A stretch of DNA of 64,000 nt, taken from positions 8,122,001 to 8,186,000 of the forward strand of contig OZ014416.1 of assembly GCA_963965975.1 (NCBI GenBank). Direction: 5' to 3'. Positions within the stretch are counted from its first letter, which is position 1. Every line of letters begins with the position of its first letter. The notes under the pieces are model-generated. The model was not told the origin of the DNA. It ran no database searches and saw only the letters and a list, made by a program, of their open reading frames with translations. This DNA is from Xestospongia bergquistia (taxonomy: Eukaryota; Porifera; Demospongiae; Haplosclerida; Petrosiidae). Below, piece by piece: positions 8,683 to 31,985 of this stretch. The position numbers were made by a program, and so were the translations under genes.

Positions 8683-11600
8683 CAGGAGACAACACAACCT
8701 ATTCCAGTACCCAGACGTAAATGTCCAGGATCCTCTAACTACATCTCAAAATCTCCAGTACAAGGACGAACAGAACCTGAGAACCAGACACAGCAAAGGC
8801 CACGCCCATCTAGTTTCCATGGTGAAGATTCATTGAAGATAATTGAACTTCGATATCGAGAGTCATCAGAACCACAGCCAACTAATGAACAAAAACCAGT
8901 TCCAAAACCACGTACTAAGATACCAGGTAGAGGTTCTATATCAATAACACAGGTATCTGAAATACAATTTGAACATAAGATTTCTCAAGAGTCACCTGAT
9001 GATGGTAGAAAACGTGTTTATTCTAAAGGAAGTAAAGAATATAAACTTGAACATAAGAAAAATCAAGAACAGTCAAAAACAAAAGCCAATAGTCATTATA
9101 TATCTCCATTCCCAGTTCATGGTACTGGTATGAGTCTGTGTGGGTCTGATCCTCCTAGTCTCATACATATATTAGATTTGGCAACTGATGATTGTATGTC
9201 AATACGACATCGTTATGTAGGAAATGATGAAGAAGATATCAAAGAGAAAACAGTATGTTATGTAATGTAAAGTGTATCCATTTAGTTATCTATCCATCCA
9301 TTCATCTATTAATTTATATATCTTTTGACACAGTTGGATATCAATGAAATATCTACTCGTGATCTTCTGGGAGAACGAGAGTCAACTCTAGAGACACCTG
9401 ACTTTGAAATACCTGGTTTATCATTTAAAGAAGTGAGGATTTTCATAAATTAACATCATTATATTATTGTGTTCACTATCTGTATAGATTCAAGATGGAT
9501 TACATCATATTACATCATCAATAGAAAAGAGAACACCTCCTGATAAACCTCCAAGGTAAAGAAAATATTTAACTACAATTAACTGTTTAATTAATGGAAC
9601 TATTAATTATGTATTGTTCATTTTTTCTGAGATAGAAAGAAAAGTGCTCCTGTCACTGAGTCCCCTCCCATATTGTATCATTGTGATCAATGTCAAACTT
9701 CTCCAGAATTACCTAGATCTTCATCCTCTGTATCTTTCCAGTCATCATCTACAGAGAGAAGTAAATCTAAAGGATTATTTGATGCAATTAGACGTGTAAG
9801 TTAGCATCTATAATAACTTTAATTGTACCTCTTTTCAAAAGTATGTAAGAGAATATGATTAGATAATCTCTGTATATCTCTGTATATTCTACTGTCATTA
9901 TAAATGTCGTTTATTAATAAAATAATGTAATTTATAAAACAATGTAGTTTTATTAATAAAATAATGTAATTTATTAGCATTTTTTGTTCATTTAGAGTCC
10001 TATATTTGGGAGAAAGAATAAGACTCCACCCACTATTACTGATGCACCCACTACTGATATAACTGTTGATATTAGATCTAGAATGGATGATGAAGAGAGT
10101 GTTATTAGTCAGGTATAAGATCAATAAATATATTAGTAGTATAAAGACTACAAGTGTAGTGGATTAGTTTAATGAGAACAAAGTATAATGTCATAATAGT
10201 AACCTTTGTTATATTTCCTACTTTATTACTGAATATGAGAACAATAACATTATATTAAAAAATATTTAATTGAAGATGTATTGTTAAAATTTAATCATCA
10301 AATGAAATGTCATGTTATGTGATATAATATAACAAATATACAATGAATTGATATGTAATGTTATTTTATTTACAGACAGGAATTTCTAAATCAAAATTAC
10401 CTCCTCTTCATAGAGCGACTTTAAATGTGAGTTTAACACTTTCCTTTTTCTTTCTGTTATATACAGTTAATGTATTCTCTCTATAGCAACTCTGTAACAT
10501 TTTAAAAGATAAAACTATAGACCCTAATATCAGAGATGATGAAGGATATACTGCTCTTCATTGGTATGTACAGAAACCACGAAGAGATCGTCATAGGTTA
10601 CTACTAATGTGTCTTCAAAGTGGGTGTGGTTTTGATATTGATGCACAAGATAACTTTGACAATACTCCATTACACGTTGCAGCTGAGGTAAGTTTTTAAA
10701 AGAATTAAGTCTCTTGTGAGACCACTTTTGTTTTCTATTGATCAATATATTATACATGTACATGTAAAAGTTGAAAGATTTCTCTAATTTATTGTTTTAA
10801 CTTACTTTATTTAGAAAAATGATTATTTGTATGGCAAAATTCTTGTTGCATTTGGAGCTGATATATCAGTAAAGAACTATCAAGAACTAACACCTAGAGA
10901 TTTAGCAAAACAGGGTCAACTGTTAGAGCTACTAAGTCAATTTCCAGAGCCTTTGGTCAATGAGTGTCTATCATTAGCATCATTACCTCAGGAGCTAGAA
11001 TCATTAAATGTTGATGAGTTAAAGAATGAAATTATTGGACGTCTTATGGTACCAGAAAGAATGTCTGGTTTAGTACGACTTATAGACACTGAAATACAAC
11101 ACCAAAAGGAGAAACTTCATGTAAGTCCTGAGGACGAATTCTTCTCAATGACTCAACGAAGTTTGGACCAGATTTCTGAGGATATAGCAATGAATGGTCA
11201 ATGTTCATATATTAAAAATTGGAAAAAAACTGCTGGAAATCGTGTATTGTTTCTTGATGGAGGTGGTATCCGAGGTCTTGTTCAAATTGAGGTGTTGATG
11301 GAGTTGGAACGTCGTACTGGTCGTAAGATCACAGAGCTCTTTGATTGGATCATTGGTACCAGTACTGGAGGTATAGTAGCACTGGGAGTAGTATATGGTA
11401 AGTAAGGATAGAGCTTACTAATGGTAGCTATCCTAGGTCATTGTGGTTGGTACTGATCTTTACTAGTCTAGAACTTACTAATGATAGCTATCCTAGGTCA
11501 CTGTGGTAAGTATTAATATAGTGTTTGTTATTTATTTCTATATACAGGTAATAAGACACTGACTGAGATGAAACAAGTGTACTTTCAAATGAAGAATGAG

Positions 11601-12794
11601 GTATTTGTTGGTTCAGGTATTGCTGGTACATTCCTCAATATGGCACAAAAATCACGTAATCTTGAAAACATTCTAAAAAGAGAAATTGGAGATACTCCAC
11701 TTAACATTATCCATAAACCAAAGTATAATTGATATATAATATGTACTTATGATCATTTGTTTATTAGAATAATGATATGTACTGTTAACAAAGAACAGCT
11801 TCCAATTAAAGTTCAATTTTTTAATAACTTTATGACAGATAAACCAGAACTAACAGACAGTAAGCTTTAATATGTAACTAAACAATGGATCCTTTCCTTC
11901 CATAGTTCCTGCTTGGAAAGCAGCTAGAGCAACTAGTGCTGCTCCTATGTATTTTACACCCTATCAAGGCAAGTATGTTGATGGAGGTGTTATGGCTAAT
12001 AATCCATGTGAGTTTGCTATGAAAGAGATCAACTTGTATGACCAGTCTATGGGAATACCAGAGCGACATTTTCTATTAGCTATGTCCGTGGGTACTGGTA
12101 TATATCCAGATAAGACATTAGAAGGAGGAGAATGGGGCAAAGGATTTAATATTAAGAAACAGTTACAGTATGTTAAAGAAATGGTGGACATGTTAACTCA
12201 AGCTGTGAGTTGTATAACTAAATAATGTTAACATATAGTCTCATTGAAGAGGAAGTAATGAAAACAGTTTTTATAGATAACTTAGATGACCATATAAGGA
12301 AATGTTTAATTGTATTCATAACATAGTCAATAGTTAATTGTATTCACTCAAACTTCCAAATATGGTCATGAGCTTGTTAATAGTTCCTTCTTTTGTTATA
12401 AATTTTTGTCTATGTAAACTGTGTTCAGTTATATCCATGTAGTATGTTTGATAATATAACATTGTTAGTTTATATATTACATGATCTCTTATTTACTGTA
12501 GATTGGTGAGTCAGAGACAACTGCTCAAAATTTTGCTATCTCATGTCAGAAATATCGTGATCCTATTCCTTTCTTTCGTTTTAATCCTCAACTAATAGAG
12601 GGTGTGTCTCCTGGAGAGATTGATGACTGGAAAATAGTAGAACTAATACTACAAACAAAACAATACTTAGCTAGTCAAGTTAGTATTATTTTATATATTC
12701 TAGTTATATGTCACTATTGTAGGATGTACAAGATAAACTTGATCAACTAGTTCAACTCTTTAAACGTCTTGTTGATCAATCTATTCATCAATAA
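8683..12794 (+). CDS. PLA2G6-like: Ankyrin-repeat patatin-type phospholipase A2 (group VI iPLA2, PLA2G6-like; gene B)
   Basis: Thirteen exons join in phase: 8683-9252, 9334-9432, 9488-9555, 9636-9795, 9996-10112, 10376-10426, 10487-10687, 10815-11397, 11548-11722, 11768-11859, 11906-12204, 12502-12678, 12723-12794; 887 residues plus a missing N terminus. About 355 polar Pro/Ser-rich residues come first, then three ankyrin repeats, then a complete patatin domain. That domain carries the oxyanion loop DGGGIRG, nucleophile motif GTSTG (Ser) and catalytic DGG in [11 protein letters not shown]; the dyad is intact. The family hydrolyses the sn-2 ester of membrane phospholipids without calcium. The visible part alone is longer than vertebrate iPLA2-beta, because of the N-terminal linker. 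A PNPLA8-like identity is less likely because of the ankyrin repeats and C-terminal resemblance. Confidence 0.9.
11240..12794 (+). CDS. Patatin catalytic domain of gene B
   Basis: The domain is built from five introns' worth of splicing. The oxyanion loop and the GTSTG serine lie in the exon ending at 11397. The DGG aspartate lies in exon 11906-12204 (around 11982-11990), next to the conserved [11 protein letters not shown]. The C-terminal extension with [15 protein letters not shown] matches the post-patatin segment of group VI enzymes. All splice junctions keep frame, so the enzyme looks functional. Confidence 0.92.
11402..11512 (+). repeat. Two units of a dispersed ~60-bp intronic repeat
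   Basis: Two near-copies share the cores TGGTAGCTATCCTAGGTCA and TACTAGTCTAGA. They fill the intron after the catalytic-serine exon. The same repeat occurs in the spectraplakin intron at about 49.60-49.80 kb in the opposite genomic orientation, which is the same orientation relative to transcription. Confidence 0.8.
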
Positions 12795-13214
12795 AGACAC
12801 TACATTAGATAACTACTCACTGCTGTTAGTAAATGTGTTATGAAAAATTATTAGACAATTACTGAATAATGTTGTATATTGTTTTAATGAAATATTCTAG
12901 TTATGTAATTGTGGATTCATCACATTATATGTTATTAATATAATAATAATAATAGAGGATTAATTTGTTATGTATTTTAACCAAAAAAATTAACAAAAAC
13001 AGCAGTAACCATAATATAAGAAACTAAGGGTCTATTGTTTTAAGTATATTTACTAACCTAATTATACTAAGGAAATATATGAAGAGGGAAATATAAAAAT
13101 TGTAGAGGACTTGATACTAAGTAGGCGGAGCTAAGCCTGCAGTACATAAAAAGTAAAAAATGTCATGTACAATAGATTACTCAATGATGACATCATTAAT
13201 TAGTTAGAAAAATG
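12795..13214. other. Convergent intergenic spacer between genes B and C
   Basis: The 3' ends of gene B (plus) and gene C (minus) face each other across 420 bp. An AATAAA overlaps the gene B stop codon region (12790-12795). No other gene is visible. Confidence 0.6.
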
Positions 13215-13576
13215 CTAATTTTCAAATATAATGTGATACAATGTATTATAGTGTTGTATAATAAAATGTCTCACTTCTAGTTGACTTTTCATTCTTGTAC
13301 CAATGTCTTTTAACTCCTGGTTCTGCTTTAGAAGGAAGTCACAAAGAGCTTTTAAAAATTCAATTCCTTTTTCATCAACCTGTTGTTGTAGTTCATTAAC
13401 TACTTTATTTGCTTTGTCATAATTATCACCACTCATACTTTCTACATCTTTCTTAAAAATTAAAGATATCAATCTAGCAGTATAGAGCCGATTAACAATA
13501 GAAAGTGGTTTAACTTCAATGGCATCACAAATATCAGCAAAATAATCCAGAAATATTTCTGATGGATCAATAGTAC
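13215..13576 (-). CDS. Last exon of gene C: CARD-like C-terminal domain
   Basis: The exon encodes 120 residues and a TAG stop. Hydrophobic spacing (FLDYFADICDAI, IVNRLYTARLISLIF, GIEFLKALCDFLLKQNQEL) fits a six-helix death-fold bundle of CARD type, including the penultimate-helix pattern G.xFLxxLxxFL. If correct, it would give homotypic interaction at the C terminus, the reverse of gene A where the CARD-like unit is N-terminal. Confidence 0.6.
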
Positions 13577-16500
13577 CTACAGGATAAGTAAATAATTTAA
13601 AGAATAGTTAGTAGAAGAGAAGTAATGAATTAATATATCTTAATTTCTCAATCTCATTAATTTCTTAATCTCATTAATCAAATACAACTCTTAATAGTCT
13701 ATTTATTAACATATATAAACTACTTATATCAACTATAACAACATAGACTATAAAATAACTCTATATAAACACAATTGAAATCATCACATACATTATATGT
13801 AGTGTTTATTATTTAGATGTCTTATATTACCTTGTTGTGTAGTATTACTAGGGAGAGTATCTGGTTTGTGTTCACTTGATAGTTCATTAGTAGAATAATG
13901 CTATTGGGTACAAGATATAAGTGATGATATATGAGGTATATAATATTGTAGTTTTATAATACACAATATTGATGATGTATCTATTGTTTATATTATTACT
14001 AAAACTAGAGGTAAGGAATTACAATGTAATTGTTAGTAGTAATCATTGTTACATAGTGAAACTATTAATCTATCATGTCAAACTTAGGAATCCTTCTAAG
14101 AACCCACAACCACAAAGAATGTTTCATGGGTATGGCTGGTCAGTTGCATGCCCAGATACCAGAAACCATTATCAAGAACATATCACTTCAACAAGTGAGA
14201 TTTCTCATTTTGTCTGTGAATAGATGAGACACTCTTTCTGACATTAATCTAGTGAGTATCTGGAATGAGACTACACAGTTTACAAAAAGCAAATGATCTG
14301 ATTAGCAAGAATAACTCCTAATTACTGAAAGAAGCCATTATGTTACAGCTGACAAGACTAATTACTAAGTTATTATTGAATTGTTACTAATAACCCTGGC
14401 TTATTATAAAGTATAAACTCTATTGCTAGGATTTGTTTATAAATTTTACTGTGTTAAAGTTCAGCTGGAAAACTTACTATCATAGCTAAAAATTATCCAT
14501 TAGTAATTTTATTTATTATAATAGTGACTTTATAATAATGTCAGACATTTTGAATTATATGTATATCCTAACACTGTTAACAAATCAAATTTGTTAATGA
14601 CTATTAATTAATACAATCTATTACACGAGTGTACAAATCATACCTGATGTTCCATTGATAAGTTGTCAGTAATAGACCCTTGAGTTGAATCAACAGCACT
14701 TGATTCCATAGCATGTTCTATAGAATATTGAGTAGAACAAAGTGATAATTATATTATAGGATAAATGTTGTAGTAAATGTTTGTGTCATATACTAATATG
14801 TATTGAAGTTGTCAACTGTAATGTTGAATCAGTTAATCACACTACTGAAGAGGAACTGATTACTGACCAATAAGCAAATTTTCAAGAATAAAGCAATTTA
14901 CTATGGTAGAAGCTAATTATACACATTAGTATAGATTATATTAGTTTATCAAACCTTGTTCCTGTGACAATTTGTTCAATAAATCCTTTACATTGGTATA
15001 TAATCTATATTTGTTAAATTACACAAGTATATAGTATGTAACGGGAGCCATACTTTTGTATCAAATGCAGTAAATATGATTGTTTTAAAAGAAATATAAT
15101 GAGTACTTCTCTATTGTATACATTATTCATGATCCATTGTGTAATCATACAAAGTTTAGTAACATGGATTTACCATCAGTTTGATCATCAATTGTGTTTT
15201 TGTCTGCTTGTGTTACACATCCTATAATAACAATATATAATAATTAATAAAGTATTTTAATATAACAGTAGAAAAGCAACATTATCATTATACTACAAAT
15301 TATTACTTGTAAGCTATTCCTTAACTCAATGAAAAACTAAATCATTGTAATTATAACTAAGGATACAGGTGTCCCTGTATTTTTAATTTTCTTTAAGATT
15401 ATTAACTAATTAAGTATCATCATCAGTTAACTCAAATCTACATACACATGTATTCATAATGATATACCTCTGACATTACTCTCTTGTTGTTCTTGAACAT
15501 ACTTCTTAGCATTAGGCAAATCATCTAATATTGTGTAAAATAAAAGAACTATATTCAAAAGTAAGTTAAATATTAGATACATAGAAATCAAACACAACAT
15601 GTATTTCCTAACACTTTGTTATGAACATAATTAAACTACATTAGTTTCCTTTACTTTCCAAAGTAGACAGATAATTGATAAAATATTTGTTCATATTTAA
15701 GATAATTATATAGCATTGTCTGTGTTATCAATTGAAAATAAATTACTCATATTATAATGTTAGAAACATAGCATGTACATAGAAAATAAATATTTTTACC
15801 TAATAAAAGAACAGCTAATTTGTTGTTATTACCTGAATTAAAGTTACTACTATGCTTGCGTTTAAGAGAGCCAGGATTGGTTTCTATAAAAATAGATAAC
15901 ATAACATATCATAACTCCAAATACAAGTATAAAGTATAAAAGTGAGTTAAAATGATATATAAAGTTATCTGTAAATGTAGATAATAATTTAACAACTGTG
16001 TGTGTGACACTTTAAATAATCCACCTAATTGATCATTATCTGTGTTATCAGATTGTTTGAGCTTCTTTGATGTCGAATGGGAAAAGGATCTCTTACGCTT
16101 AGCAGGAGCTGAGTATAAATAAAAATCATGTCATTGATTAAACTAAAATAAAGGTTTATGTAACACTGTGATGTCATAATAAGAATAAAGCATATTCACT
16201 ACCTATTCAGTAAAAATTGCTAAATTTCATAATATGTAGTTATTGTTGTTAGGACATGAATATATGTAAATTACAAATGATATGATTATAATGTATCCCT
16301 TTCTGTAATATATAGGTACTTGTCCTAGACCACACCCCAAAACATTGCAAAACCATAAAGTATAGTACTATGTGCACATTCTGTGCAATCTCAACTTGAT
16401 TTATTTAACTTTCAAAGTACCACCTTTCAAGTGGAAGTTGCATGTTCTTCCCTCTATTGCATGACTATGGGTTACTAATATGTAGAAACATCTATGCTGT

Positions 16501-19500
16501 CCTGTTTGCTGACAAGTAAAGATAATATGATATTAGTGATGTCTAAGAATTAATATATCTTAATTTCTCATGATCTCAGTAATCAAATACAACTCTAAAT
16601 AGTCTATTTATTAACATATATAAACTACTTATGTCAACTATAACAATATAGACTATAAAATAACTCTATATAAACACAATTGAAATCATCACATACATTA
16701 TATGTAGTGTTTATTATTTAGATGTCTTATATTACCTTGTTGTGTAGTATTACTAGGGAGAGTATCTGATTTGTGTTCATCTGATAGTTCATTAATAGAA
16801 TGTTCCTATTGGATACAGGATATAAGTGATGATATATGAGGTATAAATTAGTATTGTAGTTTTATAATACACAATATTGATGATGTAACTATTGTTTATA
16901 TTATTTTTAAGACTGGAGGTGAGGAATTACAATATAATTGTTAGTATCAATCTATGTATGTCAAACTTAGGAATCCTTCTCAGAACCCACAACCACCAAG
17001 AATGTTTTGTGGGTGTGGCTACATATAGTGATATGGCTGTTCAGTTCACTTAGTCACAGGCTCAGACACCAACTTGCTTAACTACTCTTGCATTATCTGG
17101 AGCAAGTGTCCGAAATCTCCCATCTTACTGTGAATATACCAAATGCTCTTTCTCACATTAAGCTATTAAGCATCTGGGCATAATACTAAATATTCAAATT
17201 TGACTTTAGGACTACATATAGAATTTCTAAGTATTGTAATCACTGAAAAGATGTTCTATGGAGGAGGTTTCATTGTAATATATTATGGAAGTGATATGTT
17301 TATCATATAAATGTAATAATAGTGTCATTTTATATAATAACTAACAAACACTTTTCTTTGTCCTTATTGATTATTGTTAACATTAGTTTTCTTTAATAAC
17401 ATTAGTTTTCTTTTTATAAGAAGAGAAATTATTCTTCAATAATCACAAACTGTTGGCAAGTAATTGCAATATATATCAAGTATGCCATCAGTGGGAAGGT
17501 TTAATTTTTAAGGAGAGAAGTCTAGTTATATTAGTAACCATAGGTAATTTAGATGTTTTAAGGACAGTCCCAGATAATGCACATTGCTCCACGTCAAATC
17601 AACATAGAAATTTCTAATAACCACACCCATTACTCCTTGTATCTTACTTATATTGATAGGTAATACCATTATTAATTAGTACTCTCATAGTCAGGTGTTT
17701 AGTCATGAAAGGAATGCCTATACTTTATATTTGGTTTATGTATAAATTTAATCTCATGTAAACAGATCTATCAGTGACAGTCACTGATATAGGACATAAT
17801 TGTACATATGTTACATAGATGTACATATGTTAGAGATCATATCAAAGACTACCTCTTTAACTAGTTAATAAAGATTACCAATATTAGTCTGGCATTGCTA
17901 ACCCCTCCCAAAGAGATGAAGGGTCTGGTGACAAGTACATATAGGACTCATATAGTAAGAATGAGGATGTATGTAGAGTATACATTGACCTGAGCATGAG
18001 TTAAGAGAGTGAAAACACAAAATGGCTGTTATGGTATATGTTGAATGTAGTGATAATCTTTCATATAGAAGTACAGACTCTTTTTATTAACTTTATGTTG
18101 CCTCATATCACTTATTATGTGTCCAGTAGATCATGTGAACATTTGTTTTATATACAAATGAACAAAATGGCTTGTCCACATGTCAATGTACTTCCACCTC
18201 AAATTGGTAATCTATTTAGAATATATGAAGTTCCTAAGAATGCTATTACCTAACTATAGGAAAATCAATGTAGAGTGTATTGTAACACAGAGACTCAAAA
18301 ACTATTGAAGCCACAAACAGACAGGTAAATCACGAGTATAGACAAGTTTTAATGTGCATGTGTATATATGTGGGAGGGCTAATAAAGGGGTGGTTCTTGG
18401 TGGGACTTGAAAATGATGACATCATCATGACATGACACATCTTGATGTCACCATCATAATATAAGTTACAAGTTACACCAAGAAGCAACCTAAACCCTAA
18501 AACCCAAAAAACTAAACCATACATTCACACTGTCATTATTAACCTGTATGACACATAGTGATGTCATCATCATAGTACAAGTTATACCAAGAAGTACTCA
18601 ACAAAGGTCACATAGAACATGCTAAATTCTGTGTATTAATTATTCATGACCATTAATTAATTGACCATTAATAAATATTGTATTTGTTTGATATAATGAC
18701 AATAGGCTATGTTTGACATGTTGTAGGTAAAAATCTAAATTCAATTTTGGACTATTGTTCTTGGAACATCTTTTGACAAAACATGTTATCAAAATATTGG
18801 ATAGTCCAGATATGAGAGAGGTTGATATCAATATTGAAGAGAATATTAAATGTCATACTTCAAAGGGAATAATTCATAAGTAACTATAATATGACTTACG
18901 TCATCTGTAACATTTATGTCAGCTTGTCCCACTGTAATTAATAACTTTTGAACATCAACATGACCATTCATTGCTGCAAGATGTGCTGGTGTTAGTCCTT
19001 GCTAGAAAACAAAAGAGGAAAAATTATTCAATTATAAAAAGCACATGAACTATCATACAATAAACTATATAGTCAATATAACAGTCATTAATACAGATAA
19101 TCATAACTATTGTATTGTTATGTCAAAACTGACCAATGACAGAGAGACAGAAAGTAAGATATTAAATGACTCTCAATTTACTATAAACATTGTCATTAAT
19201 AATAAACTACATCATTTATGTCACAATCTTATCACACTTATAATGATTATTAATTCTATTAACTAAATATTCAAATTTGACTTTAGGACTACATATAGAA
19301 TTTCTAAGTATTATAATCACTGAGAAGATGTTCTATGGAGGAGGTTTCATTGTAATATATTATGGAAGTGATACGTTTATCATATAAATGTAATAATAGT
19401 GTCATTTTATATAATAACTAACAAACACTTTTCTTTGTCCTTATTGATTATTGTTAACATTAGTTTTTTTTTAATAATAGAACAGACTGTGGGTGTATCT

Positions 19501-22500
19501 AATGTACTCCATGTGAACTTAGTATGTATGAATGTTATAAGCCACACCCACTGATATGAAACATAGTGCTAGTCCTTTTATAAGAAGAGAAATTATTCTT
19601 CAATAATCACAAACTGTTGGCAAGTAATTGCAATATATATCAAGTATGCCATCAATGGGAAGGTTTAATTTTTAAAGGGAGAAGTCTAGTTATATTAGTA
19701 ACCATAGGTAATTTAGATGTTTTAAGGACAGTCCCAGATAATGCACATTGCTCCACGTCAAATCAACATAGAAATTTCTAATAACCACACCCATTACTCC
19801 TTATATCTTACTTATATTGATAGGTAATACCATTATTAATTAGTACTCTCATAGTCAGGTGTTTAGTCATGAAAGGAATGCCTATACTTTATATTTGGTT
19901 TATGTATAAATTTAATCTCATGTAAACAGATCTATCAGTGACAGTCACTGATATAGGACATAATTGTACATATGTTACATAGATGTACATATGTTAGAGA
20001 TCATATCAAAGACTACCTCTTTAACTAGTTAATAAAGATTACCAATATTAGTCTGGCATTGCTAAGCCCTCCCAAAGAGATGAAGGGTCTGGTGACAAGT
20101 ACATATAGGACTCATATAGTAGGAATGAGGATGTATGTAGAGTATACATTGACCTGAGCATGAGTTAAGAGAGTGAAAACACAAAATGGCTGTTATGGTA
20201 TATGTTGAATGTAGTGATAATCTTTCATATAGAAGTACAGACTCTTTTTATTAACTTTATGTTGCCTCATATCACTTATTATGTGTCCAGTAGATCATGT
20301 GAACATTTGTTTTATATACAAATGAACAAAATGGCTTGTCCACATGTCAATGTACTTCCACCTCAAATTGGTAATCTATTTAGAATATATGAAGTTCCTA
20401 AGAATGCTATTACCTAACTATAGGAAAATCAATGTAGAGTGTATTGTAACACAGAGGCTCAAAAACTATTGAAGCCACAAACAGACAGGTAAATCACAAG
20501 AGTATAGACAAGTTTTAATGTGCATGTGTATATATGTGGGAGGACTAATAAAGGGGTGGTTCTTGGTGGGACTTGAAAATGATGACATCATCATGACATG
20601 ACACATATTGATGTCATCATCATAGTATAAGTTACAAGTTACACCAAGAAGCAACCTAAACCCTAAAACCCAAAAAACTAAACCATACATTCACACTGTC
20701 ATTATTAACCTGTATGACACATAGTGATGTCATCATCATAGTACAAGTTATACCAAGAAGTACTCAACAAAGGTCACATAGAACATGCTAAATTCTGTGT
20801 ATTAATTATTCATGACCATTAATTAATTGACCATTAATAAATATTGTAATTGTTTGATGTAATGACAATAGGCTATGTTTGACATATTGTAGGTAAAAAT
20901 CTAAATTCAATTTTGGACTATTGTTCTTGGAACATCTTTTGACAAAACATGTTATCAAAATATTGGATAGTCCAGATATGAGAGAGGTTGATATCAATAT
21001 TGAAGAGAATATTAAATGTCATACTTCAAAGGAATAATTCATAAGTAACTATAATGTGACTTACATTTTCTGCAACATTTATGTCAGCTTGTCCCACTGT
21101 AATTAATAACTTTAGAACATCAACATGACCATTCATTGCTGCAAGATGTGCTGGTGTTACTCCACCCTAGAAAACAAAAGAGGAAAAGTTATTCAATTAT
21201 AAAAAGCACATGAACTATCATACAATAAACTATATAGTTAATATAACAGTCATTAATACAGATAATCATAACTATTGTATTGTTATGTCAAAACTGACCA
21301 ATGACAGAGAGACAGAAAGTAAGATATTAAATGACTCTCAATTTACTATAAACATTGTCATTAATAATAAACTACATCATTTATGTCACAATCTTATCAC
21401 ACTTATAATGATTATTAATTCTATTAACTAAATATTCAAATTTGACTTTAGGACTACATATAGAATTTCTAAGTAATATAATCACTGAGAAGATGTTCTA
21501 TGGAGGAGGTTTCATTGTAATATATTATGGAAGTGATATGTTTATCATATAAATGTAATAATAGTGTCATTTTATATAATAACTAACAAACACTTTTCTT
21601 TGTCCTTATTGATTATTGTTAACATTAGTTTTTTTTTAATAAAAGAACAGACTGTGGGTGTATCTAATGTACTCCATGTGAACTTAGTATGTATGAATGC
21701 TATAAGCCACACCCACTGATACGAAACATAGTGCTAGTCCTTTTATAAGAAGAGAAATTATTCTTCAATAATCACAAACTGTTGGCAAGTAATTGCAATA
21801 TATATCAAGTATGCCATCAATGGGAAGGTTTAATTTTTAAAGGGAGAAGTCTAGTTATATTAGTAACCATAGGTAATTTAGATGTTTTAAGGACAGTCCC
21901 AGATAATGCACATTGCTCCACGTCAAATCAACATAGAAATTTCTAATAACCACACCCATTACTCCTTATATCTTACTTATATTGATAGGTAATACCATTA
22001 TTAATTAGTACTCTCATAGTCAGGTGTTTAGTCATGAAAGGAATGCCTATACTTTATATTTAGTTTATGTATAAATTTAATCTCATGTAAACAGATCTAT
22101 CAGTGACAGTCACTGATATAGGACATAATTGTACATATGTTACATAGATGTACATATGTTAGAGATCATATCAAAGACTACCTCTATAATTAGTCAATAA
22201 AGATTACTAATATTAGTCTGGCATTGCTAACCCCTCCCAAAGAGATGAAGGGTCTGGTGACAAGTACATATAGGACTCATATAGTAAGAATGAGGATGTA
22301 TGGAGAGTATACATTGACCTGAGCATGAGTTAAGAGAGTGAAAACACAAAATGGCTGTTATGGTATATGTTGAATGTAGTGATAATCTTTCATATAGAAG
22401 TACAGACTCTTTTTATTAACTTTATGTTGCCTCATATCACTTATTATGTGTCCAGTAGATCATGTGAACATTTGTTTTATATACAAATGAACAAAATGGC

Positions 22501-25500
22501 TTGTCCACATGTCAATGTACTTCCACCTCAAATTGGTAATCTATTTAGAATATATGAAGTTCCTAAGAATGCTATTACCTAATTATAGGACAATCAATGT
22601 AGAGTGTATTGTAACACAGAGGCTCAAAAACTATTGAAGCCACAAACAGACAGGTAAATCACAAGAGTATAGACAAGTTTTAATGTGCATGTGTATATAT
22701 GTGGGAGGGCTAATAAAGGGGGTGGTTCTTGGTGGAACTTCAATATGATGACATCATCATGACATGAAATATATTGATGTCATCATCATAATATAAGTTA
22801 CAAGTTACACCAAGAAGCACTCTAAATCCTAAAACCCAAAAAACTAAACCATACATTCACACTGTCATTATTATCCTGTATGACACATAGTGATGTCATC
22901 ATCATAGTACAAGTTATACCAAGAAGTACTCAACAAAGGTCACATAGAACATGCTAAATTCTGTGTATTAATTATTCATGACCATTAATTAATTGACCAT
23001 TAATAAATATTGTATTTGTTTGATATAATGACAATAGGCTATGTTTGACATGTTGTAGGTAAAAATCTAAATTCAATTTTGGACTATTGTTCTTGGAAGA
23101 TCTTTTGCCAAAAACATGTTATCAAAATATTGGACAGTCTGTATATGAGTGAGGCTGATATCAATATTGAAGAGAATATTAAATGTCATACTTCAAAGGA
23201 ATAACTTATAAGTAACTATAATATGACTTACTATATCTGTAACATTTATGTCAGCTTGTCCCTCTTCAATTAATAACTTTAGAACATCAACATGACCCTT
23301 CTCTGCTGCACAATGTGCTGGTGTTTGTCCTTGCTAGAAAACAAAAGAGGAAAAATTATTTAATTATAAAAACACATGAACTATCATACAATAAACTATA
23401 TAGTCAATATAACAGTCATCAATACAGATAATCATAACTATTGTATTGTTATGTCAAAACTGACCAATGACAGAGAGACAGAAAGTAAGATATTAAATGA
23501 CTCTCAATTTACTATAAACATTGTCATTAATAATAAACTACATCATTTATGTCACAATCTTATCACACTTATAATGATTATTAATTCTATTAACTAAATA
23601 TTCAAATTTGACTTTAGGACTACATATAGAATTTCTAAGTAATATAATCACTGAGAAGATGTTCTATGGAGGAGGTTTCATTGTAATATATTATGGAAGT
23701 GATATGTTTATCATATAAATGTAATAATAGTGTCATTTTATATAATAACTAACAAACACTTTTCTTTGTCCTTATTGATTATTGTTAACATTAGTTTTTT
23801 TTTTAATAACAGAACAGATTGTGGGTGTATCTAATGTACTCCATGTGAACTTAGTATGTATGAATGCTATAAGCCACACCCACTGATATGCAATATAGTG
23901 CTAGTCCTTTTATAAGAAGAGAAATTATTCTTCAATAATCACAAACTGTTGGCAAGTAATTGCAATATATATCAAGTATGCCATCAATGGGAAGGTTTAA
24001 TTTTTAAGGGGAGAAGTCTAGTTATATTAGTAACCATAGGTAATTTAGATGTTTTAAGGACAGTCCCAGATAATGCACATTGCTCCACGTCAAATCAACA
24101 TAGAAATTTCTAATAACCACACCCATTACTCCTTGTATCTTACTTATATTGATAGGTAATACCATTATTAATTAGTACTCTCATAGTCAGGTGTTTAGTC
24201 ATGAAAGGAATGCCTATACTTTATATTTAGTTTATGTATAAATTTAATCTCATGTAAACAGATCTATCAGTGACAGTCACTGATATAGGACATAATTGTA
24301 CATATGTTACATAGATGTACATATGTTAGAGATCACATCAAAGACTACCTCTTTAACTAGTTAATAAAGATTACCAATATTAGTCTGGCATTGCTAACCC
24401 CTCCCAAAGAGATGAAGGGTCTGGTGACAAGTACATATAGGACTCATATAGTAAGAATGAGGATGTATGTAGAGTATACATTGACCTGAGCATGAGTTAA
24501 GAGAGTGAAAACACAAAATGGCTGTTATGGTATATGTTGAATGTAGTGATAATCTTTCATATAGAAGTACAGACTGTTTTTATTAACTTTATGTTGCCTC
24601 ATATCACTTATTATGTGTCCAGTAGATCATGTGAACATTTGTTTTATATACAAATGAACAAAATGGCTTGTCCACATGTCAATGTACTTCCACCTCAAAT
24701 TGGTGATCTATTTAGAATATATGAAGTTCCTAAGAATGCTATTACCTAACTATAGGAAAATCAATGTAGAGTGTATTGTAACACAGAGACTCAAAAACTA
24801 TTGAAGCCACAAACAGACAGGTAAATCACAAGAGTATAGACAAGTTTTAATGTGCATGTGTATATATGTGGGAGGGCTAATAAAGGGGGTGGTTCTTGGT
24901 GGGACTTCAATATGATGACATCACCATGACATGACATATATTGATGTCATCATCATAATATAAGTTACAAGTTACACCAAGAAGCAACCTAAACCCTAAA
25001 ACCCAAAAAACTAAAACCATACATTCACACTGTCATTATTAACCTGTATGACACATAGTGATGTCATCATCATAGTACAAGTTATACCAAGAAGTACTCA
25101 ACAAAGGTCACATAGAACATGCTAAATTTTGTGTATTAATTATTCATGATCATTAATTAATTGGTCATTAATAAATATTGTAATTGTTTGATGTAATGAC
25201 AATAGGCTATGTTTGACATATTGTAGGTAAAAATCAAAATTTGATTTTGGACTATTGTTCTTGGAACATCTTTCGCCAAAAACATGTTATCAAAATATTG
25301 GACAGTCCAGATATAAAAGAGGTTGATATCAATATTGAAGAGAATATTAAATGTCATACTTCAAAGGAATAATTCATAAGTAACTATAATATGACTTACA
25401 TAATCTGTAGCATTTATGTCAGCTTGTCCCACTGTAATTAATAACTTTAGAACATCAACATGACCATTCATTGCTGCAAGATGTGCTGGTGTTAGTCCTT

Positions 25501-28500
25501 CCTAGAAAACAAAAGAGGAAAAATTATTCAATTATAAAAAGCACATGAACTATCATACAATAAACTATATAGTCAATATAACAGTCATTAATACAGATAA
25601 TCATAACTATTGTATTGTTATGTCAAAACTGACCAATGACAGAGAGACAGAAAGTAAGATATTAAATGACTCTCAATTTACTATAAACATTGTCATTAAT
25701 AATAAACTACATCATTTATGTCACAATCTTATCACACTTATAATGATTATTAATTCTATTAACTAAATATTCAAATTTGACTTTAGGACTACATATAGAA
25801 TTTCTAAGTATTATAATCACTGAGAAGATGTTCTATGGAGGAGGTTTCATTGTAATATATTATGGAAGTGATATGTTTGTTACTACTAAATTGGAGACTT
25901 TTGCCTCGAGTGATTGCTGCCTAATAAAAATGAAGAGAAGCGACTCCTTGGCTACTCCTTCCTCTGTGAAGTGAAGAAGGGTAACTTATGACACATTTGT
26001 GAAGTGCAGCAAGAGTTGGACAAGGAGATACAAACAGTTTCCTGGCTCGAGTGCGAAACCGAAGTTGAAGATGGAAAGAAAGTTGTTAAGATCAGTTCTT
26101 TAGTATGTAAGAAGTATTAAGATCATATCAAAGCTAGGTGGATTAGTCATAAGCTAAATGCTCTCAAACGTGTCTTATCAAAGCATGGGGCTTACACAAA
26201 TCACTTAGCTGCTCTGTCCATAGATTCCAATGTTAAAAGCACTGATTGTGCAAAAATGAAAGGATACTACACAAAATGGACAGAAAGAAAGTACCTTCTA
26301 GGTTGTGCATTGTTCATTGATCTTCTTACTCCATGTTCAATAATCTCTAAAGAAATGCAAAGTGATGATGTTGACATTTTATCAGCCCTAAATAGTTTAT
26401 TAAGGACTATAAAGGAGATAGATAAGCTTAGCTTTAAGAGTCTAGACCAATGGCCAACTTATGCAGCAACTTTGAAGAAGGTCAAAGTTGAGGAAGGAAA
26501 AGAAACGTATCAATGTCAACAGATCAAGAAATTTTCAGATGCACCAGAACCACTCAGAAGATTTCTGTCGTAGTGTTATTGAGTGTGTACGTTCTAGGAT
26601 GTCATGGTCAGACACCCAGTTAATAAGAGATATCCTCTTTATGCTTGCTAGTCAAGGCTGGGAGAAGGCGATTGAAGAAAATGACACTATGGAGGCCATT
26701 CATAGACTAGTAGAAAGGTTCTCCATTCCATTGGAAAGTGCATTAGCCAACACAGGTGAAATTGTAGGGGAATTTATCACCATAGTGCAATATGCTATAC
26801 AGTTTATTTCAGTGTCTACACTCGATTATCGTGCTGTTTGGTGGCGTTTGTTTCATGTACCTACTGCTTCGGAGTGGTCTAATGTACTAATTCTCGCCAA
26901 ACTACTGTTTTCACTACCTGCTTCTAATGCTAAATTAGAAAGGATATTCTTACAAGTCAACAATATCAAAACAGACAAGAGCTCACTGCTCTCAAATGAT
27001 ACATTAGATGACCTACTTTTGTTGACCTCAGATAATGTTCTAATTGAAGATTTTTGTGCAGACCCCACAATTGACTTGTGGTGGAAATCAAAAGTAAGGA
27101 GACCTGATCAGAGTCTTAGAAAGCCTTATAAGAAGAGTTCATTGGAGCCCAGCTCAAGCACTACAGACACTGAAACAAATGAATGTGAGTTGGAATCTGA
27201 TTCAGATGTCTGCTATAGTAATACTCTTACAGACTGGGACAGTTTTATGCACTATAGTGCAGATGATTCTGATTCAGACTAAATTTTTCATTATGTTATC
27301 TCTTATCATTATGTTATCATTATGTTATCTCTTATCATTATGTTATCATTATGTTCTCTCGAACACTTGACAAAGCATTTTTCATCACTATTTTGCGTTA
27401 AAAATGTCCAATCATTTTCAATTGATGACCATTCAAATTAGGGACTGGGTGGTCATTATGACCAGTCAATTTCAAAATGTTATTTCATACACTGAAACTG
27501 TATGTTTATAGACTTAGATTTTGCAACACTTACTATACTCTTCATTAAATAAAATAAACATGGACACCAAGATCATAGCAGAAGAAGGTGAGTTAGATTG
27601 CTGCAACTTGAGAATGAAGCATTTTTAGAAAATTCCCACATCGAAAAAGTAGTTAATTTCATATTATTCCCACAAAAGTAATTTTTTGAGAGTGATCAAC
27701 TCTACCATATTGCTTGTGTTTTGGAACAGACAAACACAATGACAGACAGACTGACAAAGCAATGTAACCCATGCCCATAGAGTGAGTTATGAGTGTTAAT
27801 AAGAGGTACATCTCACATTGTGAATATTGTTAGTGATAACCATTAATAATATTAATAATTGTGTCTTTACACTTAAACATACCAATAAACATAACTTATC
27901 TATTTATAATTGATATACTTTAAATTATCAATAGTATTTTATCATAGTAACAGTTGCTATGACAACAACTATTATAATGTCCATGTTGTTCAGTAATATC
28001 TATCAATTGACAACTTAGTAAAATAAAATCAGTAAGAAATATGTACTATTATAACAGGCCACACCTACTGATAGCTCTCAATAACTATCCTTATTAATCC
28101 TTTATAAAATGGATCACATATTAAATTAAACATTATAAAAATTATCTTAAGATGCTTTTGGATGTATTGGTATTGCAGTTGTTTTCTCTATTATTGAAAG
28201 CTGGAAGTTTCAAGTAGTTATCGTAGAATAATAGAGAAGTCTTATAATTAATAGTTGAAGAGAATAATAATTTATTAGGTGATACCTCTGTGAATACCAG
28301 GATTCTTTTAAGGATTACCTGCTAAAATCTATTAGTTTACAAATAAAATAATAGTCTTTTGATAGTCTCTTGAATTTGGCAAAAAGTTGTATTAATAGTA
28401 CAAGGTTAGTAGGAAGTTTGCTAAAATGTCAAAATAGTCATATTAATTAAAGGTCTGGGATAAAAAATGCCTTGTTCATTAACATTGTATGACAATGTCA

Positions 28501-31500
28501 ATAAAGTAAAATAATAGAGAAGTCTTATGGAAATAAGAAAAGAGATATTAAATTTCTTTCTAGATGAAACAATGAAAACAATGTCTACAACAGTGGGTGG
28601 AGCTAAATCTCTTAAGTGGCTGGAAATGATCTCCTTTGTTATAAAATATATTACTTTAAAAAGTAAACACTAACAAACAATAATAATTTATTATTATTTA
28701 ATTAGTGTACTAACCTTAATATGATGATGAACATTGACATTAGCACCTGATGTAAGTGCTTGAGTTAAAGTTTCTATATTACCATTTTCAGCTGAAGTCA
28801 AAAGTAAGTCATCCTGTTAAAATAAATAATATATTATAACTGTGACATGTACCCACATATAATTAGGTCATGTTTATAATATATCATAACATGTAAGATC
28901 ACTATGTCCATGTCATTATATACAGTAAATATATTATTATATTTATCACTTACATTTCTAACTTGGTCCATATCTCTTGCTCCAAAAGAACATAAGAGCT
29001 TAACAATGTTATCATGTTTATACCAGTGTGCTAAATAAAGTGGACTATGTCCCCACTATAAAATGAAATAAATTGTTTAATAATAACAATAGAATAAACT
29101 TGTCAAAGTGGACATATATAGTAATATATACACACACATGATCCAAAATAATCTTAGAACTAATCATGTTTATTTCAAGTAAGAACATATTAATATTTTA
29201 TATATTATTTTACATATTAGGTTCATTATATTTTCCAGTTATATTAGTAATTGTTATATATCAAACAACAAATGAGAGCTACTTTGTCCTATCCATACTT
29301 TATTGAAAATTAATTACATTACATTGGCTTTGATCTATATCCTGTCCTACTATACAGGTAGTACTACATATATGTACATGTAGTAGAGATAATAAATGAA
29401 ATATAAATTATATACAATACACACTGACCTTGTTAGAAATATTAGGATCTGCATTTGACTGTAGAAGAAATTGGACTACCTCAGTATGACCATTAAGTGA
29501 GGCTAAATGTAAAGCTGTATTATCATCCTAATAATAAAACAACAAAGAATGTGAATGAAAATATGACTACTATAATTTTAAAAATACTACAGTAAGAGAA
29601 TATAACTAAGTCTGGTAATCAGTTACAGTATATAGTGAAGATATCACAGCAATGTTGAACATCATACTATAGAGTTAGTAACAGTATAAAAATATATGTG
29701 TACACAGATGAAGTAGTGACTTTGTTGTCAATATCAGAATTACTCTAATTCCTTGTCTATTACAGCAATACAACAAGATTGTTTATTGAGGTATCTAGAT
29801 ATAGTAAGTTCATAATATAGAAGTCAAATTATATATTGAACTGTGGATTCTTATTATGTACTGTGACTTTGAGTATCATACTTTGGTTTTCAATTGTTAG
29901 TATCAATACACAAACTATTTCAATGTCCTAGTGTTTTCATCATTATTGAATTACTATATTACAATGTTATGACATATACAGTATAGCTCATTAGGGTTTG
30001 AATATTTCATGACAAAAATATCATTCAAAGTATTAAATCTTGTACATCTGACTTCTCATTAAAATATTGTTTTTAAATAAACTTATAGTTGTCAAATTAA
30101 TGAGTTATCCTTTACTAGAAACAATCATTTATTATAATAAGATATAACTTACAAAGTATTGTACTTGAACATTCACATTAACATTCTTCTTTAAAGATTC
30201 TTTCACTATATCTAATAGTCCTTCTACAGCAGCTGCTAACATAATTTCATCCTAAGAAATCACAATAAGTAAATACAGATAATGTACATTATAATAAATA
30301 CAACAGTATATATTAGGAATACACATGTACATAAATGTCACATGACACAGATTTTATCAACCAGTAGCTCCATTATTAACTATATATAAAGTACATGATC
30401 ATGTACAGTGTTATATAACTATATCCTACATATGATAGTATACTTTATTTATCTGAAATGATTTCAAGACATTCACAAATAAATAGATAAAGATCTCCTT
30501 TATGATAGAAGATTTACAGTGCTATCATAGAGTTAAGATGGATAGCTAGTCAAAGACAATTTAGTCATAGTTTAGAAATACATTCAGTCCAATTCAATCT
30601 CCTTTTCAAAAGTCTTACAAACCAATTAACACAAAAAACAAAGACTAAATAGAAGCTTGACAAATATTAAATACTAAAATCAACTTCATTTTACAACCTG
30701 TTTGAGTGTGTGTTAATAAGGTCTATTGAATTTCATTAGTCATTAATAAACATTCCTGTGGTTACATGTTCTGAAAAACCAATTAATTCCATACCAAAAC
30801 GTGACAGATATACAAACATTTACCTAGTACTAAAATACTCAGCATTATATGTTAACTTTAATTAATGTAATTATAAATGTTATATGAAGTCAATTGATAA
30901 CACTGTTGTACCTTATAATGTTATATGACATGTTTTAAACTAATGATTTAATGATAGTTATTAACTATATAAACTAATATTAATAGAAAGATAGTGTGGA
31001 TATAAACAGAATATAGGTATATAACAATTATATTAGTAAATGTCATAATCAATAATTATTATCTATTAAATGTATTGTTGTGTATAAGGATTTGGGCAAT
31101 AAATAGAATACATTTTAATATAAGTATGTACATGTACATAATATTAATATAACAATCAAATACTTTAAGTTATATTAAATATTGACCTCAACTACATACA
31201 TGTACATACTTACATAATCAGAAGTAGCACCTGCATTTTTTAAGAACTCTACTATTGTCTTATGACCTTTGATATATGCTATAGTATGAGGTATTCTACC
31301 CTATATAATGAAGAAAGACATTTTAATATATGAAATAAAATCCAATTACATATATTGTGTATACACAATACAAACTATTACTTTACATTGACATGTATCA
31401 TTAATTAAGACATTATTATTACACAATATAATGGATTTATTCTATTAAATTATAAGACAATATTAAAAATACTACAAGTAAAGATCATGTATGTTATTAA

Positions 31501-31985
31501 TTGTGGATACTAATTTAATAACTTTAATAAATAGAATAATAATTAATAAATTGTGCAAATGTTGAAGTTGTTAATTAATATTTAGGGTGTGGTTAAAATG
31601 AATTAATACTCATTAAATATATATAACTATATGTCTATAGTTTGTAAGATATTATCACTTCATGAACAATTTAAGTTATAAAGAAACTGTGTACATGTTA
31701 GTATGAGGAAAAGAACAATTTGATTGTTTAACTAGTTACCATTTTGTCTAGTTATATAAAGACTTAATTAGTCAACTTTAACAGCTGCTATATGAATGTA
31801 ATATACTGTAATTGATTGAATGTGATAGTCACTTTTCCTGGACATATCTCTACATATTAAACATTACTCTACTTAATAATAATATATAATGTATTGATTA
31901 TATACTAACACATGTAGTATACTGGATTAGTTAATAATATACTTACAATTCTCCACTGCTCTCTCTTTGAAAATTGAGCTGCCAT
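13215..31985 (-). CDS. Ankyrin-repeat protein with basic linker and C-terminal CARD-like domain (gene C)
   Basis: Eighteen exons join in phase: 31947-31985 (ATG, 13 residues), 31214-31300, 30153-30251, 29429-29527, 28954-29055, 28715-28813, 25400-25501, 23232-23333, 21065-21166, 18900-19001, 16736-16805, 16025-16108, 15833-15883, 15468-15524, 15174-15221, 14644-14717, 13831-13900, 13215-13576; about 582 residues. Nine single-repeat ankyrin exons (all phase 0-0) are followed by a Ser/Thr/Asn-rich linker with nuclear-localisation-like basic clusters (AKRKRSF, KKLK, KRKHSS). The end is a helical CARD-like domain. Four ankyrin exons sit in tandem 2.17-kb units; five more are a duplicate of gene A's. 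Expression and exact exon use are inferred. Confidence 0.75.
13640..14110. repeat. Duplicated linker-exon segment, copy 1
   Basis: This segment is similar to 16540-16995 over about 460 bp, including the exon 13831-13900 and its flanking introns. It is a local direct duplication. Confidence 0.8.
13831..16805 (-). CDS. Linker exons of gene C
   Basis: Seven short exons (48-84 bp; 16736-16805, 16025-16108, 15833-15883, 15468-15524, 15174-15221, 14644-14717, 13831-13900) encode a low-complexity, polar linker. Most are phase 1-1, so they can be skipped without a frame shift. The exons at 13831 and 16736 are duplicates and share DTLPSNTTQQ. Confidence 0.65.
16540..16995. repeat. Duplicated linker-exon segment, copy 2
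   Basis: This is the partner of 13640-14110. It ends shortly before the first 2.17-kb tandem unit and holds exon 16736-16805. Confidence 0.8.
17184..25878. repeat. Tandem array of four ~2.17-kb units, each with one ankyrin exon
   Basis: Units begin at about 17184, 19263, 21428 and 23594, and a partial fifth runs from 25763 to 25878. The spacing is 2165-2167 bp except for unit 1 (2079 bp), which lacks a segment present in units 2-4 (for example 19481-19575). Intronic DNA is almost identical between units. Each unit holds one minus-strand exon of gene C (18900-19001, 21065-21166, 23232-23333, 25400-25501). The array stops abruptly at a hAT fragment. Confidence 0.95.
18900..25501 (-). CDS. Four tandem ankyrin exons of gene C
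   Basis: All four exons are 102 bp and phase 0-0 and encode 34 residues of the form xGxTPAHxAAxxGHVDV. Variable residues across the copies in genomic order: residue 1 Q/G/Q/E, 3 L/V/Q/L, 8 L/L/C/L, 11-12 MN/MN/EK/MN, 18 Q/L/L/L, 23-24 TV/TV/EE/TV, 31 V/V/V/A, 32 T/A/T/T, 33 D/E/D/D, 34 D/N/I/Y. All observed codon differences are non-synonymous. Canonical ankyrin positions (TP, H, AA, GH, LL, G, AD, N) are kept. Confidence 0.9.
25879..27290 (+). pseudogene. Decayed hAT-family transposase (ZNF862-like)
   Basis: Plus-strand coding remnants are antisense to gene C. An upstream fragment (about 25995-26110) resembles the N-terminal zinc-finger region (QTVSWLECETE) but is broken by stops. A frame from 26256 to 26573 and a second, overlapping frame from 26488 to 27282 carry the middle and the C-terminal hAT dimerisation region (STLDYRAVWWRLFHVP, LLFSLPASNAKLERIF, LDDLLLLTSD, IDLWW). 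At least one frameshift and several stops make it inactive. No terminal inverted repeats or target-site duplication were identified by eye. Confidence 0.85.
27291..28074. other. Intronic sequence of gene C
   Basis: It holds a short imperfect repeat of TTATGTTATCTCTTATCA (27295-27356), possibly the outer part of the decayed transposon. Nothing else is recognised. Confidence 0.5.
28075..31612. repeat. Segmental duplicate of 0-4.6 kb (ankyrin exons of gene A)
   Basis: This block is collinear and highly similar to about 50-4580, introns included. It carries five ankyrin exons: 28715-28813, 28954-29055, 29429-29527, 30153-30251 and 31214-31300. Similarity ends at about 31612 (4580 in the other copy). 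Beyond it, the next exon in gene A and the first exon of gene C are unrelated. Confidence 0.93.
31947..31985 (-). CDS. First coding exon of gene C
   Basis: The exon encodes 13 residues (MAAQFSKREQWRI) and then a consensus donor ATT|GTAAGT in phase 0, matching the phase of the ankyrin exon at 31214-31300. It lies just outside the duplicated block, so it supplies a new start to duplicated ankyrin exons. An ATG-first exon this short is plausible but not proven. Confidence 0.6.

Follow-up and report, generated by a model that had tools for sequence, protein, structure and literature searches.

We describe a predicted gene carrying a tandem array of ankyrin exons in a 64,000-nucleotide stretch of the genome of the sponge Xestospongia bergquistia (contig OZ014416.1, here called C6, positions 8122001-8186000; hereafter "the window"). 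The gene lies on the minus strand, from about position 31985 to about position 13275 of the window, and its predicted order is five upstream ankyrin-like repeats, array repeats A through D, small linker exons, and an exon coding for a CARD-like domain. In this gene and a closely similar neighbor, the array exons exhibit the statistical marks of selection for amino acid change, with a bias toward particular codon positions.

Each array exon is a 102-bp, phase-0 exon on the minus strand bounded by AG and GT splice dinucleotides. In transcript order, the array consists of exon A (25400..25501; AG/GTAAGT sites; EGLTPAHLAAMNGHVDVLKLLITVGQADINATDY), exon B, which is the most diverged of the four (23232..23333; QGQTPAHCAAEKGHVDVLKLLIEEGQADINVTDI), exon C (21065..21166; GGVTPAHLAAMNGHVDVLKLLITVGQADINVAEN), and exon D (18900..19001; QGLTPAHLAAMNGHVDVQKLLITVGQADINVTDD). 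These reside within four tandem units spanning positions 17188..25764, which measure 2077 (the unit at 17188, about 90 bp shorter than the rest), 2165, 2166, and 2169 bp and whose introns are 97.5-98.5% identical from unit to unit. A fifth unit begins at positions 25765..25878 but is truncated after about 115 bp. It adjoins a hAT-like transposase fragment (26121-27282, plus strand) that lies in an intron of the array gene and matches Dimer_Tnp_hAT with an E value of 0.0014, slightly under the Pfam cut-off.

Upstream of the array, also on the minus strand, a putative first coding exon is predicted from an ATG and a GTAAGT donor (31947..31985; MAAQFSKREQWRI). It is followed by ankyrin-like exons at 31214..31300 (open, with AG/GT sites) and 30153..30251, ankyrin exons at 29429..29527 (DDNTALHL...) and 28954..29055 (WGHSPLYL...), and an ankyrin-like exon at 28715..28813 (DDLLLTSAENGN...). 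These five ankyrin-type exons were included in a spliced ankyrin product of 311 amino acids scanned with Pfam, which matches Ank_2 (3.5e-55; 185 bits versus a cut-off of 27.3), and the gene thus encodes an ankyrin repeat protein by the Pfam threshold. Seven linker exons (16736-16805, 16025-16108, 15833-15883, 15468-15524, 15174-15221, 14644-14717, and 13831-13900, all minus strand), two of which are K/R-rich, were placed by eye with attention to their flanking dinucleotides and are predictions. The CARD-like exon near the C terminus occupies positions 13275..13576 (minus strand); its acceptor side was checked, and its donor at 13275 is placed where paralogue matching ends. A Pfam scan of the spliced ankyrin portion and of the CARD-like exon found no NACHT or other NOD ATPase.

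A reading of the window made from its letters alone (the sequence-only reading) had proposed that four near-identical tandem units, each with one 102-bp ankyrin exon, vary at 12 of 34 exon codons with no synonymous difference, which would be the reverse of ordinary exon and intron divergence. Each of these statements was borne out. When the units are aligned, exon divergence between pairs ranges from 5/102 to 17/102 (5-17%), whereas intron divergence ranges from 30/1974 to 49/1973 (1.5-2.5%). A recount finds the same number of variable codons (1, 3, 8, 11, 12, 18, 23, 24, 31, 32, 33, and 34), and no codon has two synonymous versions among the four window copies. Moreover, the exon carries 20 segregating sites in 102 columns, compared to 79 in the 2068 other alignment columns, and none of the 1866 segments of 102 columns taken off the exon reaches 20 (maximum 14).

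The lack of synonymous differences among four copies is unremarkable when taken alone, because only 1.3-1.8 are expected at the local intron rate. Rather, the signal in these copies is an excess of amino-acid-changing differences, of which 20 are observed and 4.3-5.9 expected at the same rate. Fisher tests of this nonsynonymous excess give p values of 1.2e-4, 5.7e-7, and 3.0e-7 when the flanks are set to 100, 200, and 400 bp, respectively. Copy B supplies half of the 20 exon sites, and its donor-side flanking intron is likewise more diverged. The excess remains when this copy is removed (10 sites; p = 0.003, 0.0009, and 0.006 for the same flanks).

Additional copies were sought in the genome (146.46 Mb, 21 contigs). 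A protein search with exon A yielded 526 candidates, the best 150 of which were scored; all of these match without internal stops, and 131 of them are on contig C6 by hand count. The array gene belongs to a large family that is clustered mainly on one contig. A DNA search at unit length revealed a neighbor gene with four more exons at C6:8102304-8109851, where the main matches are 95-99% identical. This neighbor is a duplicate of the array gene over much of its length (94.1% identity over window positions 13169-17181 and 94.7% over 28325-31625). Because the hAT-like fragment is present in both genes (C6:8110885-8112524 in the neighbor, 96% identical), its insertion probably predates the duplication.

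The 5′ end of the neighbor gene is uncertain, since at least two further copies of upstream exons are located around C6:8115-8124 kb. Two upstream-type ankyrin exons within the window (1935-2036 and 2410-2508, minus strand), which are counterparts of the array gene's exons at 28954..29055 and 29429..29527, respectively, probably belong to the neighbor, but this assignment is uncertain because more copies of both types exist at C6:8115675 and C6:8119021. Farther away, an array copy at C6:7401884-7403280 matches with 97% identity in one portion of the unit, but on the donor side of its exon it is 17-19% diverged from the seven close copies listed. This copy suggests that homogenization has been patchy across some 0.7 Mb.

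For comparisons within the family, 67 ankyrin exons (40 plus 27) were collected. Nei–Gojobori pair analysis used 32 of the 40, with the 70 closest pairs entering the table of nonsynonymous (pN) and synonymous (pS) differences per site, and comparison of arrays used 43 of the 67 exons in 11 groups. Site models were fitted to the eight close copies of the window gene and its neighbor and to four other arrays, leaving out arr7429, arr7436, arr7272, arr7172, and arr7665.

Among the eight close copies, 18 codons vary at 27 segregating sites, and the at least 33 changes required include no synonymous one. Under the intron substitution spectrum, 26% of changes are expected to be synonymous, and therefore a count of zero has a probability of about 4e-5 if the changes are independent. 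Eight-copy Fisher tests give p values of 1.8e-4 and 9e-5 when the flanks are 100 and 200 bp long. When seven of the eight copies are compared in pairs, pN is 0.05-0.24 and pS is 0-0.06 at flanking-intron distances of 0.01-0.04, and pN exceeds pS both for the window copies (0.128 versus 0.034) and for the neighbor gene (0.142 versus 0.020). The most extreme example, a pair chosen post hoc, is exon B and the exon at C6:8106445, between which 10 nonsynonymous changes and no synonymous one are counted, compared to 9/800 in the nearest 400 bp per side (Poisson 3.5e-8). Farther out on the donor side, correspondence between these two is lost (226/773 at 800 bp).

Codon models point in the same direction. 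For the eight copies, the M0 ratio of nonsynonymous to synonymous rates (omega) is 10.2 on the exon tree (p = 0.001) and 12.6 on the intron tree (p = 0.0003). Model M2a is preferred over M1a with p values of 1e-8 and 1e-11 on these respective trees, and assigns 18-20% of sites to a class with an omega of 17-25. Sites above 0.9 in this class are codons 1, 8, 11, 31, and 34 on the exon tree and codons 1, 3, 11, 12, and 34 on the intron tree.

The CARD-like exon serves as an internal control. Between the window gene and its neighbor, its pS is 0.033 and its pN is 0.013 (pN/pS 0.38), and thus the same two genes are under purifying selection at one end but strongly diversified in the array. Of 13 comparisons to the window gene, made with 13 of the 20 loci fetched, twelve fall at pN/pS values of 0.30-0.58, and the ratio of means over the 91 pairs of 14 copies is 0.46. 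The diversifying selection suggested by the sequence-only reading is therefore supported by the nonsynonymous excess over introns, pN above pS, omega above 1, the purifying control exon, and the bias in position considered below. As for its other suggestion, that conversion homogenizes the introns, patchy intron identity indicates that conversion probably acts too, but as a complement to selection and not as its alternative.

Several observations weigh against this interpretation or restrict its reach. Copy B sits in a diverged tract, and when it is removed, 95 of the 1866 off-exon segments have at least 10 sites (maximum 13); by our reading, many of these adjoin an indel near 17391-17500. At 400-bp flanks, where the acceptor-side flank of one copy is very different from the others, the eight-copy Fisher p value is 0.06, and it is 0.38 for the neighbor gene alone. 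The codon models were run with code that we wrote ourselves, in which branch lengths are merely scaled and recombination is ignored, so that their p values are optimistic. In both eight-copy fits the conserved class drifted to an omega of about 1, which means that purification of the framework is not demonstrated by these models. One of the 13 CARD-like comparisons to the window gene has a pN/pS of 1.09.

Nine other groups have pN near pS, either slightly above or slightly below, and in the four of them to which site models were fitted, M2a gives no significant improvement over M1a (p = 0.13, 0.29, 0.48, and 0.68). An omega well above 1 is thus demonstrated only for the young group formed by the window gene and its neighbor. 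For pairs with strongly diverged introns, pS in the exon (0.20) falls short of the corresponding intron figure (0.43), which could reflect poor intron alignment, exon-level conversion, or constraint.

The sequence-only reading also noted that the variable positions resemble those randomized in designed ankyrin libraries. Using what we take to be the customary numbering of the ankyrin repeat, we mapped library positions onto exon codons by the shared TPxH..AA..GH framework, on which designed ankyrin repeat protein (DARPin) sequences align; the set of eight positions is our choice. Positions 2, 3, 5, 10, 13, and 14 correspond to exon codons 34, 1, 3, 8, 11, and 12, and positions 26 and 33 correspond to codons 24 and 32. 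A published account lists the first six as varied in designed libraries and the other two as varied in earlier libraries, but not directly on the binding surface (PMC3308923). All eight fall among the 12 variable codons of the window gene (hypergeometric p = 2.7e-5), as do all six of the PMC3308923 positions when considered alone (p = 6.9e-4), and the framework is nearly constant, in agreement with the proposed resemblance.

The same positions vary in other arrays too. Across ten groups, including the window gene and its neighbor (arr7429 was omitted because it nearly duplicates arr7436), amino acid variation is present in 45 of 80 array-codon cells at library codons versus 46 of 260 elsewhere, with a Fisher p value of 9e-11 and a position-permutation p value of 2e-5; related arrays contribute cells that are not independent of one another. 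When the window gene and its neighbor are excluded, the counts are 31/64 versus 34/208 (p = 6e-7). Synonymous variation shows no such concentration (4/80 at library codons versus 17/260 elsewhere). The terminal codons of the exon vary most often, the first in 9 of 10 arrays and the last in 8 of 10.

The sequence-only reading had called the C terminus CARD-like, a claim that gains from structure prediction and from relatives just upstream of NACHT exons, but that finds no Pfam match for the window sequence. An AlphaFold2 model from a 51-sequence alignment, which took in 50 of the 120 listed relatives (136 found), reaches a predicted local distance difference test score (pLDDT) of 93 and supersedes a weak single-sequence fold (pLDDT 74.5). 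In fold comparisons with this model, CARD chains rank first, and the prediction has the helix bundle of the death fold. Tempering this assignment, Pfam finds no CARD match for the window protein or for two NACHT-adjacent CARD-like exons. Of the 51 alignment members, 11 match Pfam CARD at E<=10, the best at 0.003, and a profile search of PDB sequences with this alignment gave no match at E<=1. Modeling therefore supports a C-terminal CARD fold that lies below the Pfam threshold.

The CARD-like exon has 150 matches in the genome at E<=0.001. The CARD-like domain of the array gene has relatives in exons that immediately precede NACHT exons, and it is 33% identical to one of these. A genome search for NACHT gave 95 matches at E<=0.001 among 103 scored candidates, none of which is on contig C6. 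In NACHT loci L069 (265-3834) and L070 (186-3885), a CARD-like frame is followed by a long frame, and a scan of CARD-like/NACHT loci found no LRR match. Four equal-scoring CARD-like matches on another contig (C13:3415633, 3637089, 3826846, and 4037128), spaced by about 190-221 kb, reflect either recent segmental duplication on a large scale or some feature of the assembly.

The window contains other genes. An open frame of 371 codons between the two array genes (6483-7598, minus strand) contains a Death domain by Pfam (1.4e-9). A Patatin-like phospholipase gene (8683-12800, plus strand) is encoded opposite to the array gene; one of its exons matches Patatin at 9.7e-9, and ankyrin-like stretches upstream in this gene were read by eye only. 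Positions 42800-63900 (minus strand) apparently hold a single long gene whose frames, read by eye, show spectrin-like repeats together with segments resembling EF hands.

We consider it fairly probable that the array gene represents a germline-diversified family of intracellular ankyrin-CARD recognition proteins, whose repeats evolve like those of fungal NOD-like receptors (NLRs) but are built as cassette exons. The array would then serve for recognition in a receptor-like intracellular protein in which upstream ankyrins, four cassettes, and a linker lead to a CARD-like signaling domain, and for which "modular recognition receptor," the term used in the sequence-only reading, may be apt. Each cassette is one phase-0, 102-bp exon within a near-identical 2.2-kb unit. 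Recombination between units, by unequal exchange or conversion, may add, remove, and homogenize copies, as patchy intron identity and the duplicated gene suggest. In the window gene and its neighbor, the statistics show positive selection fixing amino acid changes mostly at binding-type positions of the hairpin and inner helix, presumably on a ligand-binding concave face, while the framework stays nearly constant. By coupling a changing ligand surface to CARD-driven assembly, such a protein might recognize non-self or microbes and thus have an immune role.

The strongest competing explanation shares the selection component with this mechanism, and so the odds of the two overlap, but it assigns the diversified surface to a role outside immunity, for instance in allorecognition, in gamete compatibility, or in conflict with transposable elements. 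Sequence alone does not name the ligand, and the two K/R-rich linker exons may hint at a nuclear role. Large clustered families occur in several non-immune recognition and conflict systems. However, the kinship of the CARD-like domain to exons just upstream of NACHT exons favors immune or cell-death signaling, and we regard a non-immune function as a serious but unlikely alternative.

Less probable still is that recombination alone produced the pattern, wherein conversion homogenizes introns while the exon differences are old variants from diverged paralogues that reflect no adaptive selection. Copy B is indeed diverged across its exon and about 300 bp of flank, intron identity is patchy (for example, 97% over part of the unit at C6:7401884), and 15 of 29 minor codon variants in the eight copies recur at the same codon in 49 other 102-bp exons, making templating possible for about half of the variants. 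However, the other 14 are absent from these 49 exons, which are only part of the family. Old imports should also carry synonymous differences, and none exists in the eight copies, whereas more distant pairs do have mean pS values of 0.07-0.20 (bins from an intron distance of 0.06 up). Purifying selection on the CARD-like exon in these genes also speaks against this account.

Targeted hypermutation or dedicated diversification machinery acting on the exon appears very improbable. Of the 220 codon differences tallied in 28 pairs, two nucleotides are changed in 56 and three in 19, and the first and last codons vary most often, as such a mechanism might produce; but a local mutator should raise synonymous variation, and this is no higher at surface-type codons than elsewhere. 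Least credible is relaxed constraint on dispensable or unexpressed exons: most sites fall in the class with an omega of about 1 in the eight-copy fits and the array exons and gene model rest on genomic sequence, but decay gives pN similar to pS, whereas pN here is several times pS, the eight exons have no stops or length changes compared to six indel runs in the introns of A, B, and C, and all 150 scored genomic matches, the best-scoring candidates only, are free of stops.

The locus bears on the question of how animals without antibodies achieve diverse intracellular recognition. It offers a clean test, because the neutral rate can be taken from the introns of the cassette itself and a signaling-type exon provides the internal control. 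If confirmed, an ankyrin-CARD system that evolves like fungal NLR repeats would represent convergence between fungi and animals, and natural array variants could inform binder design. Somewhat more speculatively, the family might exemplify a large unnamed class of intracellular receptors, apart from NACHT genes, that joins single-repeat ankyrin cassettes, which are duplicated, shuffled, and selected to vary at the binding face, to a CARD-type domain. Because all eight close array exons are 102 bp long and in phase 0, alternative splicing could combine them further. It is comparably tentative to view that class as a natural counterpart of the designed ankyrin library. All eight library-position codons vary in the natural array; however, the libraries are artificial, and the natural repeats carry an extra residue (GQAD) and have more variable codons (18, 23, 31, and 33).

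Known systems offer points of comparison. The ANK, TPR, and WD repeats of fungal NLRs from Podospora are near-identical, with suggested concerted evolution and a small number of positively selected positions in each repeat, and the selected ANK positions are on the concave surface (inner helices and hairpin/loop) with one exception (PMC4986451). The window gene and its neighbor likewise show positive selection on binding-type positions within conserved repeats. However, the array repeats are encoded one per exon, with one such exon in each 2.2-kb unit; the domain of signaling type is CARD-like and sits at the C terminus; and the host is an animal. Because no NOD module was found, we do not class the array gene as a fungal-type NLR. 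Sponges are described as having CARD-NACHT-LRR genes as well as NACHT-Ank architectures of unknown function (PMC12909245), and these receptors, like the NACHT genes of this genome, share with the array gene a related CARD-like domain and large family size. The array gene differs in its ankyrin repeats and in that no NACHT was found in it. An ankyrin-CARD cassette family is not mentioned in the portion of PMC12909245 available, and searches of open-license literature aimed at such a family showed no description of it in the titles and abstract openings that they listed.

Two more distant systems share individual features. Modules of the PRDM9 zinc-finger array turn over rapidly, and their recognition residues are apparently under positive selection (PMC3890296). 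PRDM9 thus has a similar array of modules selected at such residues, but it is a DNA-binding coding minisatellite, whereas the modules described here are protein-binding-type repeats in separate exons. In snake three-finger toxins, accelerated segment switch in exons to alter targeting (ASSET) leaves introns similar and differences limited to exon segments (PMC2711939). This exon-confined divergence amid similar introns is also the pattern of the sponge array, but the toxins are secreted and change by segment replacement, whereas the array changes by codon in repeat exons of an intracellular type.

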